42,980 nt of DNA. Origin: Ilumatobacteraceae bacterium (lineage in GTDB: Bacteria; Actinomycetota; Acidimicrobiia; Acidimicrobiales; Ilumatobacteraceae). Positions 33,216-39,160 of the stretch are shown in pieces; positions within the stretch are counted from its first letter, which is position 1; each line of letters begins with the position of its first letter. Below the pieces are notes generated by a model. That model was not told the DNA's origin and made no database searches. It was given only the letters and a program-made list of their open reading frames with translations. The stretch lies in assembly GCA_017859395.1 (NCBI GenBank), contig JAFMNE010000018.1, positions 1 to 42,980 on the forward strand, given 5' to 3'. The position numbers and the translations under genes were made by a program.

Positions 33216-33788
33216 CTAGTCGATGGTGTCGCGGGGGCTGATGACCAGATGGAGCCGATCGGTGCGCAGCACCACATCGGTGTCGGTGTGGTCGCCGCCG
33301 TTGCGCACGGTGTGGGTGGGAGTGTGCACCAGCACCATGTCGCCATCGTCGATTCGCGCGAGGGTGGCATCGCGGGGCGAGCCAGGGGCGTCAGCGACGG
33401 TGTCGACCGGAATGAGGATCGGTGCGCCATCGGGCACCCGTGGCAGGAAGAACTCGAGGTGGTGATCCACATCAGGTCCGGGGTTCGCGCATCGGTGTGC
33501 CACCCCTGCAGGAATGAGTGCGAGTTCACCGGGTGTGAGCATGTGGGCCTCGCCTGAGATTTCAACAGCGACACCGCCGGCGGTGGCAAGAATCAACTGG
33601 TCGACCACGTGGTGGTGCAGGCCCGGCCCGCATCCTCCGGGTTGGGTACGAAAGGCCTTCACCGCTGCGGTGGGGTCATCGAGCACGTTCTGGATGTCGC
33701 ATCCGGGCGTGCCGAGCGGTGCCCATGCTGTGTCATCGGGTGGCGGGACGGCGGGCATCTCAGGCGTCGATTCTGCTGTAGTCGGCAT
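33216..33788 (-). CDS. Cupin domain protein
   Basis: A 190-residue protein with a single cupin barrel at about residues 45-120. Motif 1 is GPGLHHHVVDQLILATAGG with its His metal ligands, and motif 2 is PGELALIPAGVAHRC with the last His. After the barrel is an extended tail with LVHTPTHTV. It may be a dioxygenase or a sugar/metabolite-binding protein. It overlaps the FAD monooxygenase gene by 29 bases on the same strand, so the two are probably one pathway (aromatic or similar oxidation), which is inference. The start is ATG 33788. Confidence 0.82.
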   Translation of the reverse strand: MPTTAESTPEMPAVPPPDDTAWAPLGTPGCDIQNVLDDPTAAVKAFRTQPGGCGPGLHHHVVDQLILATAGGVAVEISGEAHMLTPGELALIPAGVAHRCANPGPDVDHHLEFFLPRVPDGAPILIPVDTVADAPGSPRDATLARIDDGDMVLVHTPTHTVRNGGDHTDTDVVLRTDRLHLVISPRDTID

Positions 33789-35058
33789 CGACGAGTGAAT
33801 GTCCCTGCGCGAGTGCTTCGAGCGCGAATCCGGCGGTGCGGCGATACCCCTCGGTGACCTCCAGGATCTCGTCGCGTGAAATGACGTCGTCGATGGATGC
33901 GAAACCATCGGGTGCGCGTTCGTGCACTAACTGCATGGGTGCTTCGGGTCCGAGCCCACGGTTGGCAAGCACGATGGCCCCGGTTGTGGGGCGACGCCGG
34001 GCGTCGTAGATCCCAAGGGCGGTATCGAGATCGTTGGAGTGTGCGAGTACACATCCGGTCAGCACTCGTGCGTCGAGAATTGCCTGAGATGCGCCGTTCG
34101 ACCCGATTGGGTACATCGGGTGTGCAGCGTCGCCGAGCAGGGTGACGCGGCCCTCATTCCATGTGGGCAGTGGGTCGCGATCCACCATGGGGAACACGAA
34201 CGTCTGCGGTGCCGAGGCGATGAGAGTTGGAATGTTGAGCCAGTCGAAGCACCAGTCGGTGAAGCGCGGCAGGACATCGTCGAGGTTGCCGACGCGGTTC
34301 CAGTCCTCTCGTTCGCCGAGGTCGTGGTCGACGGTTCGGTACTCGGCGATGAAATTGATCATCTGGCGTCCATCGTCGAGGTCGGCGATCGGGTAGGCCA
34401 CGAACTTCTGGTCGGTGTGGCCAGCCCACACCATGGTGCGGCCATCGAGGATTGGTGCATGAGCGACGGCGCCGCGCCACATCAGTGCGCCATTCCACAG
34501 CGGTGCACCTTCGTGGGGGTGGCGAGCACGACGCACTGCGGAGTGGATGCCATCGGCGGCCACCACGACGTCAGCACGATGCTGCACGGTCGTGTCGTCA
34601 CCTCGGCGGTGGTAGGTGACAGTGGCACCGTTGTCATCGCTCACCACGTCGACGAGGTGGTGCCCGGTGATCACCCGCTCGGGGCCCAGTCGCTGCAGGG
34701 CAGCGTCGTGCAGAATCATCTGCAGTGTGCCGCGGTGGATCGATAACTGTGGCCAGTTGTAGCCGGCAGCGCGTCCGCGGGGTTCGTCCCAGATGGACTG
34801 GCCATGGGCGGTGAAATAGGCGAGCGTGTTCGGGGTCACCGCAGACGCTTCAAGGGCATCGAGTAGGCCGAGGGCATCGAGCTCGCGCACCGCGTGTGGC
34901 AACAAGTTGATGCCGACCCCGAGGGGTTGCACCTGCTCAACGGATTCGTGCACGACGACGTCACAGCCGTGTTCGTGAAGGCTGAGCGCGGTGACGAGTC
35001 CGCCAATGCCACCTCCGACGATGTCGATGGTCGATGTGGGCAGGTCGTGAGCGGTCAT
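33760..35058 (-). CDS. FAD-dependent aromatic monooxygenase (PhzS/salicylate hydroxylase type)
   Basis: A 432-residue group A flavoprotein monooxygenase. The FAD motif GGGIGG is at residues 15-20, the DG motif is VVVAADGIHSAVRRA, and the GD motif is VTLLGDAAHPMYPIGSNGASQA. It hydroxylates an aromatic ring using NAD(P)H and O2 in the cytoplasm. PhzS-like members act on phenazines, but no phenazine genes are here, so the substrate is open. The start is ATG 35058. It heads the cupin/lipoprotein run and lies 21 bp after the Fur-family gene on the same strand, so read-through from that promoter is possible. Confidence 0.88.
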   Translation of the reverse strand: MTAHDLPTSTIDIVGGGIGGLVTALSLHEHGCDVVVHESVEQVQPLGVGINLLPHAVRELDALGLLDALEASAVTPNTLAYFTAHGQSIWDEPRGRAAGYNWPQLSIHRGTLQMILHDAALQRLGPERVITGHHLVDVVSDDNGATVTYHRRGDDTTVQHRADVVVAADGIHSAVRRARHPHEGAPLWNGALMWRGAVAHAPILDGRTMVWAGHTDQKFVAYPIADLDDGRQMINFIAEYRTVDHDLGEREDWNRVGNLDDVLPRFTDWCFDWLNIPTLIASAPQTFVFPMVDRDPLPTWNEGRVTLLGDAAHPMYPIGSNGASQAILDARVLTGCVLAHSNDLDTALGIYDARRRPTTGAIVLANRGLGPEAPMQLVHERAPDGFASIDDVISRDEILEVTEGYRRTAGFALEALAQGHSLVDADYSRIDA

Positions 35059-35079
35059 AGCTGGCTGGCGGTACTCGGG

Positions 35080-35502
35080 TCAGTCGTGGAGTCGGGTGAT
35101 GCAGGTGGAGCACGTGCCGGTGACGCGCACATCGATACCGGCAGCATGAAAGTCGGACCCGGCACCGAGCTGGGTGCGCAGGGCATCGACCGCGTCGGTC
35201 GCGTGATGGGTGGTGGCACCACACAGTGAGCACACGAGGTGGATCACGTCGTCGGGGTGGGCGACTTCCCAGGTGCTGGCCTCATCGGTGAGGCGAGATT
35301 CGCGCACTAAGTCGAGGTCGGCGAATAGGCCAAGGGTGCGATACACCGACGAGGAGTTGATGCCGGGGTCGAGTTCGTGGACCGCGGCAACGATTTCGGC
35401 GGCGCTCAGGTGACGGCCGGTGGAATTCAATACGTCCCATACGACGCGTCGTGGTCGGGTCATACGGTGGTCGCTCGCGCGCAGGGTGGCTTCGAGCAGC
35501 AT
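35080..35502 (-). CDS. nur: Fur family metal regulator, probable nickel regulator Nur
   Basis: A 140-residue Fur-family protein. The winged helix is at residues 10-70 (TRPRRVVWDVLNSTGRHLSAAEI, NSSSVYRTLGLFADLDL). The metal sites are in HPDDVIHLVCSLCGATTHH, and two CxxC pairs (CSLC, CSTC) make a structural zinc site. It is divergent from a CbiMQO-type importer whose promoter holds a near-consensus Nur box, which is why I favour Nur over Zur or Fur. A -10 element TAGTGT (35514-35509) lies exactly 6 bases before ATG 35502, so the transcript is probably leaderless. Zur remains the main alternative. Confidence 0.82.
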   Translation of the reverse strand: MLLEATLRASDHRMTRPRRVVWDVLNSTGRHLSAAEIVAAVHELDPGINSSSVYRTLGLFADLDLVRESRLTDEASTWEVAHPDDVIHLVCSLCGATTHHATDAVDALRTQLGAGSDFHAAGIDVRVTGTCSTCITRLHD

Positions 35503-35598
35503 GCGCGCACACTAGGTGATGGAGCAGGTGTTCGGAATAGGGGTCGACCTCTACCGGTTATGAAGGGCCTCGGCGATTCCGGTGCCGCGATGGCGTTA

Positions 35599-35638
35599 TT
35601 GCGAATCAGTTGCATTTGTGTCCGCAACCGTTTAGTGT
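35599..35638 (+). promoter_or_regulatory. Promoter with overlapping Nur box for the metal importer
   Basis: The -35 hexamer TTGCAT (35610-35615) and -10 hexamer TAGTGT (35633-35638) are exactly 17 bases apart. TTGCGA (35599-35604), 5 bases, then TTGCAT matches the Nur operator reported for Streptomyces (tTGCaa-N5-ttGCAA) at 10 of 12 positions. The right half-site is the -35 element, so a bound repressor would block RNA polymerase directly. The predicted leader to ATG 35694 is about 50 bases. No cobalamin-riboswitch core is visible. Confidence 0.68.
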
Positions 35639-35693
35639 CAAAACCAATCCGGTGACCGCGCCCCCCGCGGTCCCCGGTGAAGGGATAGACGAC

Positions 35694-36701
35694 ATGTTTG
35701 ACACGCCAGCCATCGTCGCCATGCACGCACCCGATGGTTTCTTGGAGCCAGGCGTCGCCGTCGTCACCGCCGTGATCGCCGTCGTGGTGACCGCCATCGG
35801 TCTGCGCCGCGCAACCGACGAACTCGGTGACCGCCAAGTCCCCCTGGCCGGTCTCGCTGCGGCGTTCATCTTCGCGGCGCAGATGTTCAACTTCCCGGTC
35901 GCGGCGGGCACCACCGGCCACCTGCTCGGCGGCGCACTTGCCGCGATCTTGCTCGGCCCCTGGGTCGGTTCGTTGATCGTCACCGTCGTGGTCGTGGTGC
36001 AGGCGGTGCTCTTCGCTGACGGCGGGTTGACTGCTCTGGGTTACAACACCATCAACATGTCGATCGTGACCGCGTTTGGCGGATGGGCTGCGTTCCGGCT
36101 GCTGCGCCGCGTGATGCCCGCGAACTCTGCGGGAGTGGTCGGGGCGACCGCGTTGGCCGCCGGTATCTCGGTGGTGCTGTCGTCGGCAGCATTCTCGATT
36201 GAGTGGCTCTTCGGCGCGTCGGCACCGGTCGCGTTCGACACCGTGTTCGGCGCAATGGTCGGTGTACATGCCCTGATCGGCATCGGCGAAGGCCTCATTA
36301 GCGCACTGGTGATTGCTGCGGTGCTCGCTGCGCGCCCCGATCTTGTTGCCGGTGCCGCAGATCTCGACCTCGCCGACCTCTCACGTCCGGCGCGCGTCGG
36401 TACGCGTACGTTCGTTATCGGAGCGTTCTTGTCCACAATTGTGGTCGCGGCTGTCGTCAGCCAGTTCGCGGTTGACAACCCTGATGGTCTCGAAAAAGTC
36501 GCCGAGGACGAGGGGTTCATCTCCAGCGCCCGTGACCACGCTCTCGACTCGAGCATCTTTGCCGACTACGCCACCTCTGGTGTCGACAACGCCACGGTGT
36601 CGCTCGCGGTGGCCGGCGTGGCCGGCGTGCTCATCACCTTGGCGGTGGGTTATGGCCTTCTTGGGGCCAGCCGGCTTGGCCGTCGCACCCAGGGTGCCTG
36701 A
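35694..36701 (+). CDS. cbiM: ECF nickel/cobalt transporter S component, CbiM fused to PDGLE (NikMN-like) domain
   Basis: A 335-residue membrane protein. CbiM/NikM begins MHAPDGFLEPG at residues 10-20, with about seven hydrophobic segments (FNFPVAAGTTGHLLGGALAAILLGPW is the conserved core). From about residue 235 comes a second domain with NPDGLEKVAEDEG flanked by two helices, the PDGLE/NikN type. It captures Ni2+ or Co2+ for the CbiQO module next door. ATG 35694 has GAAGGG upstream, but the metal-binding Met-His of the family would then be internal; ATG 35721 would place it at the terminus. It is first in a three-gene operon. Confidence 0.88.
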   Translation: MFDTPAIVAMHAPDGFLEPGVAVVTAVIAVVVTAIGLRRATDELGDRQVPLAGLAAAFIFAAQMFNFPVAAGTTGHLLGGALAAILLGPWVGSLIVTVVVVVQAVLFADGGLTALGYNTINMSIVTAFGGWAAFRLLRRVMPANSAGVVGATALAAGISVVLSSAAFSIEWLFGASAPVAFDTVFGAMVGVHALIGIGEGLISALVIAAVLAARPDLVAGAADLDLADLSRPARVGTRTFVIGAFLSTIVVAAVVSQFAVDNPDGLEKVAEDEGFISSARDHALDSSIFADYATSGVDNATVSLAVAGVAGVLITLAVGYGLLGASRLGRRTQGA

Positions 36702-36704
36702 TCA

Positions 36705-37472
36705 ATGGGTGGTGGGCACGGTTCCTCGGTCGATCGGCTGCATCTCGCTGGCGACACGATCATTCATCGGCTCGCACCACACGTGAAGATTGTCGCCACA
36801 TTCGCTTTCGTGATCAGTGTGGCGATTTCGCCGCGTCAACGCGTTGAGGTATTCGCCGTCGCGTTCGCCTGTGTGCTCACGCTCATCATGGTGGCGCGCA
36901 TTCCACTCCGGGTGTGGTTGGCCCGCTGCGCGGTGATTTTGCCGTTCATGACCATGGCGGTGCTGGTGCCCTTTGTGGGCGGCGGAGAGCAGACCGAGGT
37001 GCTGGGCGTGTCATTGTCGACCGATGGCCTGTGGGCAGCGTTCAACATCGCGGCCAAGGCGCTCATTGGCGCGTCGGCATCCATCGTTTTGGCGGCAACG
37101 ACACCGGTGACCGGCCTGTTGGAGGGCTTTGCGCGGTTACGGGTGCCACGCGTGCTGATCTCCATTGTGGCGTTCATGATTCGTTATCTCGATCTGCTGG
37201 TTGCCCAGCTCGGCAGGATGCGCACCGCCATGGTGGCCCGCGCGCACGATCCACGCTGGCTGTGGCAGGCCAAACCCATCGCGTCGTCAGCTGGTGCGTT
37301 GTTCGTGCGTTCCTACGAGCGTGGTGAGCGGGTGCACCAGGCCATGCTCGCGCGTGGGTACACCGGTGTAATGCCCGACCTAGTGGAGCAGTCGCGGCCC
37401 CGGTCGGACTGGTGGGCAGCGATCGTCGTGCCGGCTCCGGTGGTTGCCGTGTTGGTGTTGAGACTGTTGTGA
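36705..37472 (+). CDS. cbiQ: ECF transporter T component CbiQ
   Basis: A 255-residue membrane protein with about five hydrophobic helices and the two coupling-helix signatures: ARAHD near residues 177-181 and ERGERVHQAMLARGYTG further on, both of the Ala-Arg-Gly type that docks to the ATPases. It links the CbiM S component to CbiO. It is 3 bp after cbiM. The start is ATG 36705. Confidence 0.9.
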   Translation: MGGGHGSSVDRLHLAGDTIIHRLAPHVKIVATFAFVISVAISPRQRVEVFAVAFACVLTLIMVARIPLRVWLARCAVILPFMTMAVLVPFVGGGEQTEVLGVSLSTDGLWAAFNIAAKALIGASASIVLAATTPVTGLLEGFARLRVPRVLISIVAFMIRYLDLLVAQLGRMRTAMVARAHDPRWLWQAKPIASSAGALFVRSYERGERVHQAMLARGYTGVMPDLVEQSRPRSDWWAAIVVPAPVVAVLVLRLL

Positions 37473-37482
37473 GGAGATCGTT

Positions 37483-38226
37483 ATGAGTTGTGCACCATTG
37501 AGTGTGGATGGGTTGTGCTTTACCTACCCCGGGGAGCATCACCGGGCACTTGACGGTTTCGGTCTTCAGGTCGCTGCCGGTGAACGGGTGGCGGTACTCG
37601 GTCCGAACGGGTCGGGAAAGACCACGTTCGTGATGCATCTGAATGGTTTGCATCAGTTGCAGCGAGGCGCGATCACCATCGGTGATCTTGAGATGTGCGA
37701 TGACAACCTGGCTGAGATTCGCCGGCGGGTCGGTGCGGTATTCCAAGATGCCGACGACCAGTTGTTCATGCCGAGTGTGCGTGCCGATGTTGCATTCGGG
37801 CCGGCAAACCTCGGGGTGCCCAAGGCTGAACGCGACGCCATTGTGGAACGGGCCCTCACTCAGGTGGGCGCGATGGATCTCATCGATCGCACACCGCATC
37901 ACCTGAGCGGGGGAGAGAAGCGTCGAGTGGCGATCGCTACCGTGCTGGCGATGGATCCGCACATGCTCGTGCTCGACGAGCCCACCTCGGGTCTCGACCC
38001 TTTCGGTCGCCGTGAGTTGGCAGATCTGTTGGTGTCGTTGCCCCAGACCCAGTTGGTGGTCACCCACGATCTTCCCTTCGCGTTGCAGATCTGCCCGCGA
38101 TCGGTGGTGGTGAGTGGCGGCCGCGTGGTGGCCGATGGCCCCACAGCGGAGGTGCTGGCCGATACTGCGTTGCTGGAAGAGAACCGTCTCGAGTTGCCCT
38201 ACGGCTTTGACCCCAGCCGTGTCTGA
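37483..38226 (+). CDS. cbiO: ECF transporter ATPase CbiO
   Basis: A 247-residue ABC ATPase. Walker A GPNGSGKT is at residues 40-47, the Q-loop is AVFQDADDQLFMPSV (the ECF type), the signature HHLSGGEKRRVAIATVL, Walker B MLVLDEPTSGLD and switch His VVTHDL. It powers nickel or cobalt import with CbiM and CbiQ as a homodimer. GAGGAG lies just before ATG 37483, 10 bp after cbiQ. The operon ends here, converging on the DHPS-like gene with a 46-bp gap and no strong hairpin. Confidence 0.93.
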   Translation: MSCAPLSVDGLCFTYPGEHHRALDGFGLQVAAGERVAVLGPNGSGKTTFVMHLNGLHQLQRGAITIGDLEMCDDNLAEIRRRVGAVFQDADDQLFMPSVRADVAFGPANLGVPKAERDAIVERALTQVGAMDLIDRTPHHLSGGEKRRVAIATVLAMDPHMLVLDEPTSGLDPFGRRELADLLVSLPQTQLVVTHDLPFALQICPRSVVVSGGRVVADGPTAEVLADTALLEENRLELPYGFDPSRV

Positions 38227-38272
38227 CCTCGGTCGCGAGTGATCCCCGGCGTTGCTCGGGCAGTCGCCGTGG

Positions 38273-39160
38273 TCAAGAACACAGGCGGGCCATGTCGAGC
38301 ACCGGTTGCACCCGGGCGACTTCGTGGCTGCGAATCAGTCCCGCGCGGGCCTGCACCGCGAGCACGGCCATTGCGGTTTCTGCCACCCGTGCTTCATCGT
38401 GGAACAGGTACACCGACGAGGCCATGGTGACGCAGGTCGGCCAACCCAGCGAACGGAAGCGGAACGACTGCACCAAATTGTCGGTTTGGTAGCGCACTCG
38501 CGCGGGCCCATCGGGAAGGTTCAGAGCAAAACCGAAACCCGGGTCGATCCAGATGCGTTCCACACCCGCGCCGCAGATCATGTCGAGGCGTTCGGTGAAG
38601 AAGGCCATCTGCTCATCGATCATCCGCTCGGCGGTGGGAACGTCATCACCTGATCGGGCGGTGGTGCCCGGCGTGTAACACAGGATCAAGCCGGCCTCAT
38701 GGGCGGCGATCGATTCGTAAAGGGCGGCGTCGTCCACTCGTCCCGTGAGGTTGATGACCGCGGCGCCGGCATCGAGGGCGGCGACAGCGACCTCGGTGTG
38801 GTACGTCTCCACCGACACCAAGATGTTCTCGTCGACGAGGGCACGCACAACGGGTAACAAGGTGTCGATCTGGCGTGCAATGTCGACGAGGTCGGCGTTG
38901 GTTCCGGTGGACTCGGCACCGATGTCCACCATCGCTGCGCCTTCGAGGGTCATACGTCGTGCGCGGTAGAGCGCGGCATCAAGGTCGTGCACGATGCTCT
39001 CGCGGTACGACGAGTCGCGCGACAGGTTCATCACGCCGAGTTGGTACGGCTCATCGTGGAGGGTGCGGTCCTGACGGGGAAAATGCAATGAGCGCACGGG
39101 TGCTGTGGCTACGTCGCGGTGAGCAGACCACAACTCCAAGAGATGGTCAGGCGTGATCAT
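38273..39160 (-). CDS. Dihydropteroate-synthase-like TIM-barrel protein with degenerate active site
   Basis: A 295-residue protein of DHPS fold: LGVMNLSRDSS replaces NVTPDSFSDGG, MVDIGAEST fits the DVGGEST strand, IDPGFGFALNLPDG keeps the DPGFGF motif and LIRSHEVARV keeps the last Arg and His. Key residues are lost: STRPG reads STGTN, SVDT reads SVET, and the Lys of SRKS is replaced (MASSV), so the pterin and pABA sites are not standard. It is 42 bp after folK on the same strand, in folate-gene context. It may have another substrate, and true folP would then lie elsewhere. The start is ATG 39160. Confidence 0.75.
   Translation of the reverse strand: MITPDHLLELWSAHRDVATAPVRSLHFPRQDRTLHDEPYQLGVMNLSRDSSYRESIVHDLDAALYRARRMTLEGAAMVDIGAESTGTNADLVDIARQIDTLLPVVRALVDENILVSVETYHTEVAVAALDAGAAVINLTGRVDDAALYESIAAHEAGLILCYTPGTTARSGDDVPTAERMIDEQMAFFTERLDMICGAGVERIWIDPGFGFALNLPDGPARVRYQTDNLVQSFRFRSLGWPTCVTMASSVYLFHDEARVAETAMAVLAVQARAGLIRSHEVARVQPVLDMARLCS

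Follow-up and report, generated by a model that had tools for sequence, protein, structure and literature searches.

The window analysed here, a stretch of 42,980 bases from a genome of 2.25 Mb (G000; 95 contigs, 95% complete), carries a Fur-family regulator gene that is divergent from a three-gene ECF operon, with an intergenic stretch of 218 bp. We consider it likely that this locus is a nickel-uptake switch, with nickel as the best-supported cargo and effector. The product of the minus-strand gene would be a Fur-family repressor, presumably dimeric, translated from a leaderless mRNA. With sufficient nickel in the cell, the metal-bound repressor would bind a 17-bp palindrome that includes the -35 element of the nikM(N)QO promoter, thereby blocking RNA polymerase. 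Under nickel shortage, the metal would leave the sensor site, the repressor would release the DNA and the ECF importer would be made. The imported nickel would mainly supply Ni-superoxide dismutase (Ni-SOD). The gene pair, the operator and its overlap with a conserved -35/-10 pair, the leaderless regulator gene, and a genome with Ni-SOD but neither of two corrin markers come from comparative sequence analysis; metal-dependent binding, repression and the role of nickel as effector and cargo are the steps that we infer.

The operator, TTGCGAATCAGTTGCAT, lies on the plus strand at 35599-35615 and is formed by TTGCGA (35599-35604), a spacer of five bases (35605-35609) and TTGCAT (35610-35615). It agrees at 10 of 12 positions with TTGCAA-N5-TTGCAA, the operator of Streptomyces coelicolor Nur (SCO4180; 3EYY), the box being given as tTGCaa-N5-ttGCAA in PMC3919588. 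The earlier note had claimed this match, and its letters and coordinates were correct. The site was the sole match of at least 10/12 in the window, with four others reaching 9, and a single pass covered both strands since the consensus is palindromic. Dinucleotide shuffling gave p 0.012 for a 10/12 box within the 218-bp intergenic stretch, so that the window by itself is weak evidence and conservation decides.

We have therefore relied on orthologous loci. A regulator search in 200 genomes of the family yielded 19 orthologues, all below E 1e-35 and followed by a match at 2.7e-16, and a search in 395 genomes of the class yielded 25 at E <=2.5e-29, four of them already seen, with two more at 4.3e-23 and 5.8e-22. 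The orthologues are thus patchily distributed (19/200 and 25/395). Among the resulting 40 loci, that of genome G079 (L025) was dropped because its contig ends inside the intergenic stretch; G079 has the regulator and was counted among the genomes without the module. Loci L004-L007 were left out as having the same sequence as loci of G142, G514, G425 and G533. A box matching at 9 to 12 of 12 positions was present between regulator and importer in all 39 assessable loci, with a consensus of about TTGCGAANNNTTYGCAR and with T2, G3, C4, A6, G14, C15 and A16 invariant throughout. The loci are not 39 independent events, since they share descent and 15 of them belong to the genus of the window. Taken singly, 36 of the 39 boxes had p <=0.035, with L168, L173 and L175 at 0.055-0.075. 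The divergent CbiM/NikM gene was also found in 39/39 loci, in L023 as its first 43 residues at a contig end. The weaker Fur-family homologues L177 and L178, our negative control, had neither importer nor box.

The right half-site, TTGCAT (35610-35615), coincides with the putative -35 element of the importer promoter, whose predicted -10, TAGTGT (35633-35638, plus strand), follows after 17 bp, a TANNNT at a conserved distance from the half-site. Both hexamers match the textbook ones at 3 of 6 positions and a strict sigma-70 consensus scan of 35400-35800 returned no promoter, so the promoter call rests on the conserved spacing. A TANNNT located 16-18 bp from one half-site occurred in 35 of 39 loci, against 2.5 expected when the following bases were shuffled; it was absent in L033, L159, L163 and L173. 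The right half-site served as the -35 in 23 loci; in the window's family this was so in 17 of 18 loci, with a spacing of exactly 17 bp. The left half-site did so in 12 loci, which all belong to other families of the class, namely f36, f39 and f51. The half-sites start 11 bp apart, about one DNA turn. The operator is thus shifted relative to the -10 with one half still serving as -35, and it would keep covering the promoter. Repression by occlusion draws its strongest support from this conserved half-site/-10 geometry. The box of Nur likewise overlaps the promoter of a target, sodF, according to PMC3919588.

The right half-site had been proposed before as the -35 of a 17-spaced promoter, with direct repression of the importer promoter as the mechanism; the first proposal held, in its letters and in a spacing from one or the other half-site that is conserved in 35/39 loci, with the negative strict scan as a caveat, and the second is well supported by the conserved box, the spacing and the divergent gene pair. 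That the 10/12 box is a chance match rather than an operator has a negligible probability. The shuffle value of only 0.012 and the negative promoter scan would fit such a match, which we rejected because the box is kept in all 39 orthologous loci and, in 35 of them, a -10 is correctly spaced from it. As judged from the sequences, the operator-promoter is real and conserved.

The regulator gene appears to have a promoter of its own on the minus strand. Its -10, TAGTGT (35509-35514), is separated by 6 bp (35508-35503) from the ATG at 35502, which predicts a leaderless mRNA, as the earlier note had suggested. A TANNNT was found 5-8 bp before the regulator ATG or GTG in 35/39 loci, against 1.3 expected, and this conserved pattern supports a leaderless regulator.

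The regulator gene itself (35080-35502, minus strand) encodes 140 aa and matches PF01475 with E 3e-19 (Pfam). In both sequence and profile searches its nearest solved relative was 3EYY, the S. coelicolor Nur, which was the best PDB sequence match with E 2.5e-11. Its structure was predicted with a pLDDT of 89.8; Foldseek ranked chains of Fur, PerR and a manganese regulator above 3EYY (20th), a ranking that shows only that the folds are alike. The 40 loci provided 28 regulator proteins that were aligned for invariant residues and 24 that entered a tree, the window included in both. In this 48-row tree the orthologues formed one branch, with the Fur-family genes L008-L012 beside it and L177-L178 inside it, split from Nur at 99/98; Nur was placed among other genes of the Fur family (95/94). 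This placing is unsure, since several of the reference rows are either long or incomplete.

H31, E79, H82, D84, H88, H99 and four cysteines were invariant in the 28 aligned orthologues. The metal-site histidines of Nur we take to be H33, H70, H72, H86, H88 and H90. With Nur numbered in this way, two of them have counterparts in the regulator (H33 in H31 and H90 in H88), and the other four positions are changed (H70 to E68, H72 to R70, H86 to D84 and H88 to V86). One of the two nickel sites of Nur is possibly a crystallization artefact, as stated in PMC7055735, which weakens any reading from those residues. By its sequence, the regulator would work in a Nur-like way, with the fold and operator of Nur but with other ligand residues and apparently in another branch; it is probably not an orthologue of the Streptomyces protein.

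The Nitriliruptoria genes L008-L012 share H31, E79, H82, D84, H88 and H99. We rejected them as orthologues, as there was no importer in the stretch examined and no box of at least 10/12 (three have 9); the ligand set is therefore wider than this gene pair. A mycothiol-synthase-like gene was seen by eye near several of them. In L177 and L178, Gln replaces His31 and Gly replaces Asp84; these altered ligands, together with the missing importer and box, hint at a link between ligand and target. Another arrangement was observed in L039 (G078), where a Fur-family gene that groups with Nur stands codirectionally before a different CbiM, with the perfect palindrome TTGCGACTGAGTCGCAA between them (1919-1935).

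Next to the regulator gene, about 20 bp after it, lies a PRK07538-type FAD monooxygenase gene (33760-35058, minus strand). Within 1.5-kb flanks, it adjoins the regulator in 12 of the 15 same-genus loci, the others being L019-L021, and it is absent beside the regulator in the g19 loci L022, L024, L025 and L033. We know of no connection of this monooxygenase with nickel.

The importer operon is read from the plus strand. A likely ribosome-binding site, GAAGGG (35679-35684), is placed by sequence 9 bp before the ATG at 35694. The first gene (35694-36701, start predicted) encodes a NikM-type S component with a fused PDGLE domain (PF01891 E 1.5e-55 and PF13190 E 7.7e-16, run from 35721), the second (36705-37472) a NikQ/CbiQ-type T component (PF02361 E 7e-32; TIGR02454 above cut-off) and the third (37483-38226) a NikO/CbiO-type ATPase (PF00005; ECF ATPase models below their cut-offs). 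The metal-binding N-terminus of the S component, MHAPDG, starts at 35721, following a predicted leader of nine residues. The S component was closer to 4M58 (E 8e-28), which we take to be the nickel-binding TtNikM2, than to 5X3X, a cobalt CbiM (E 5e-11). The NCBIfam models that matched it mostly bear the name cobalt transporter CbiM, and its second domain was matched by CbiN models, all below cut-off; PF02553 CbiN was not among the Pfam matches of the importer. Riboswitch control of the importer was rejected, as 35000-38400 gave no Rfam match up to E 1.

The operon has the make-up of a NikMNQO-type system, an M component with an MHxPxG N-terminus, Q and O in three consecutive genes. It shares with NikMNQO (TtNikM2, 4M58) the MH-P-G N-terminus of M, a fused second domain, and Q and O in one operon; the second domain here is PDGLE. 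NikR is named as the NikMNQO regulator in PMC2667541, whereas here the operon faces a Fur-family gene. The M, Q and O families are also common to CbiMNQO; unlike that system, the window has neither the PF02553 match nor a riboswitch match, and neither corrin marker (CobN, CbiC/CobH) was found in its genome.

In all 18 family loci, a short stretch that may be translated as a leader, with Ala as its last residue, precedes MHAPDG: MFDTPAIVA in the window (35694-35723) and MIA, MTSVLA, VTSLFA or VTHIA in the other family loci (L016-L024, L026-L033). At least 10 loci of other families had no ATG or GTG within nine codons upstream, so that the apparent start is at the motif itself (non-family loci compared: L157, L160, L161, L167-L169 and L173). 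In L167, Leu (TTA) stands before the His, and the start must therefore lie in a leader. A leader of this kind, 3-9 residues long, would have to be removed.

The choice of metal is backed by genome content and not by the box. TGCGAAT-N-ATTCGCA inverted repeats are ordinary Fur-superfamily geometry; because of this common geometry, the place of the regulator outside the Nur branch and the different ligand positions, the box does not itself specify the metal. Ni-SOD (PF09055) was found in the window's genome with E 5.8e-41 and in 36 of the 39 module genomes (17/18 in the family and 19/21 in the class). Among genomes without the module, it was present in 11 of 41 from the family (G079 among the 41) and in 33 of 52 from the class, where the association is weak and confounded by shared ancestry. 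With the module being patchy, many Ni-SOD genomes must obtain nickel otherwise. Ni-SOD was the commonest nickel enzyme in module genomes: strong urease matches (E <1e-37) occurred in 8/39 (2/18 family and 6/21 class), and NiFe hydrogenase covering most of the model in 3/39 (G489, G429 and G467). Weak partial urease matches in G000, G100, G123 and G142 were left uncounted, as were weaker hydrogenase matches in G210, G276, G427, G436, G514, G515 and G533, mostly to the N-terminal part (G427 also 282-508). Three module genomes, G158 (78% complete), G337 and G514, had none of Ni-SOD, urease or hydrogenase at the cut-offs used.

The corrin marker CbiC/CobH (PF02570) was matched in 2/39 module genomes (G337 and G444) and in 2/21 other genomes in that search, and CobN in 0/18 family module genomes and in 2/59 of all searched. 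The window's genome has one CbiM and gave no CobN, CbiC or hydrogenase match. With no Rfam match in 35000-38400 either, it offers neither a match to the two corrin-synthesis markers nor a B12 riboswitch match as a sign of CbiMNQO. The earlier note had derived nickel, not cobalt, from the box; nickel is supported, on account of Ni-SOD in 36/39 and a corrin marker in 2/39 module genomes, but the box does not hold as its basis.

An unlikely reading keeps the same architecture and makes it a cobalt switch, with Co2+ as effector and cargo, needed for cobalamin or for a different cobalt enzyme. Either metal, Ni or Co, is carried by proteins of the CbiM family (PMC2667541), the NCBIfam names, CbiN models included, are mostly cobalt ones, albeit below cut-off, and two genomes combine the module with a corrin gene. 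One of these, G337 (L157; 95% complete, 2 contigs), is the sole genome with a perfect 12/12 box; it has a corrin gene, and none of Ni-SOD, urease and hydrogenase was matched in it at the cut-offs used. Box similarity alone is thus no predictor of nickel. G337 is a fair counter-example, in which the cargo may be cobalt and the locus possibly a cobalt version of the same switch. Against cobalt as the general rule are CbiC/CobH, unmatched in 37/39 module genomes including the window's, the missing CobN in the 18 module genomes of the family, the riboswitch result and the prevalence of Ni-SOD. Just as improbable is a dual Ni/Co sensor and importer with no strong preference, in which case each genome would determine the need. 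A single regulator branch with a single box does occur both in Ni-SOD genomes and in the corrin genome G337, but the genome counts are uneven, with 36/39 for Ni-SOD and only 2 for a corrin gene.

Generic control of the operon by a Fur or Zur-like protein responding to iron or zinc is very improbable. The ordinary box geometry and the Foldseek order would be compatible with it, but sequence and profile searches put 3EYY first, and CbiM/NikM proteins are not known as iron or zinc importers. Moreover, the genome has separate Fur-family genes whose neighbours, identified by eye, suggest these roles: L001 (contig C60) is beside a rubrerythrin-like gene and has B. subtilis PerR as nearest solved relative, and L003 (contig C17) is beside a zinc-ABC-like ATPase gene, with PerR and then Zur as nearest solved relatives, suggestive of PerR and Zur roles, respectively. 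A nickel-responsive switch remains our preferred reading.

We have also looked for further targets of the regulator, as a scan of the genome for the box near urease, hydrogenase or sodF/sodN had been suggested. The pattern TTGCRANNNNNTYGCA gave 96 matches in 19 genomes, against 68 for the reversed control. Of these, 22 were at the importer itself (palindromic sites counted twice), leaving 74 against 68, and a larger regulon was therefore rejected. The window's own genome had 2 exact matches against 3 for the control, the second match being inside a reading frame. A box at Ni-SOD was likewise rejected: the own Ni-SOD locus (L066, 3.35 kb) held none of at least 10/12, and 3 of the 58 Ni-SOD loci scanned held scattered 10/12 matches. 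The scan thus returned no second target, and the simplest reading of this strict-pattern search is a one-operon local repressor. Nur, in contrast, controls nikABCDE and sodF, according to PMC7055735.

Searches of the literature, covering few subscription papers, brought up no report of a switch of this kind in Acidimicrobiia. We tentatively propose, at somewhat below even odds, that these regulators constitute a second nickel-sensing Fur branch, non-orthologous to Streptomyces Nur and patchy in the class (probably Acidimicrobiia). Such a branch would have its own ligands (H31, E79, H82/D84, H88 and H99), a one-operon regulon on ECF nickel importers and an operator whose position relative to the promoter differs between families by one helical turn, with either half-site serving as -35.

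If the switch operates as proposed, these genomes would gain a defined nickel-starvation switch and promoter, and Nur-like control would extend beyond the Nur branch. The loci would also provide naturally varied operators and ligand sets with which to study nickel/cobalt discrimination by Fur proteins, with G337 as a natural exception.
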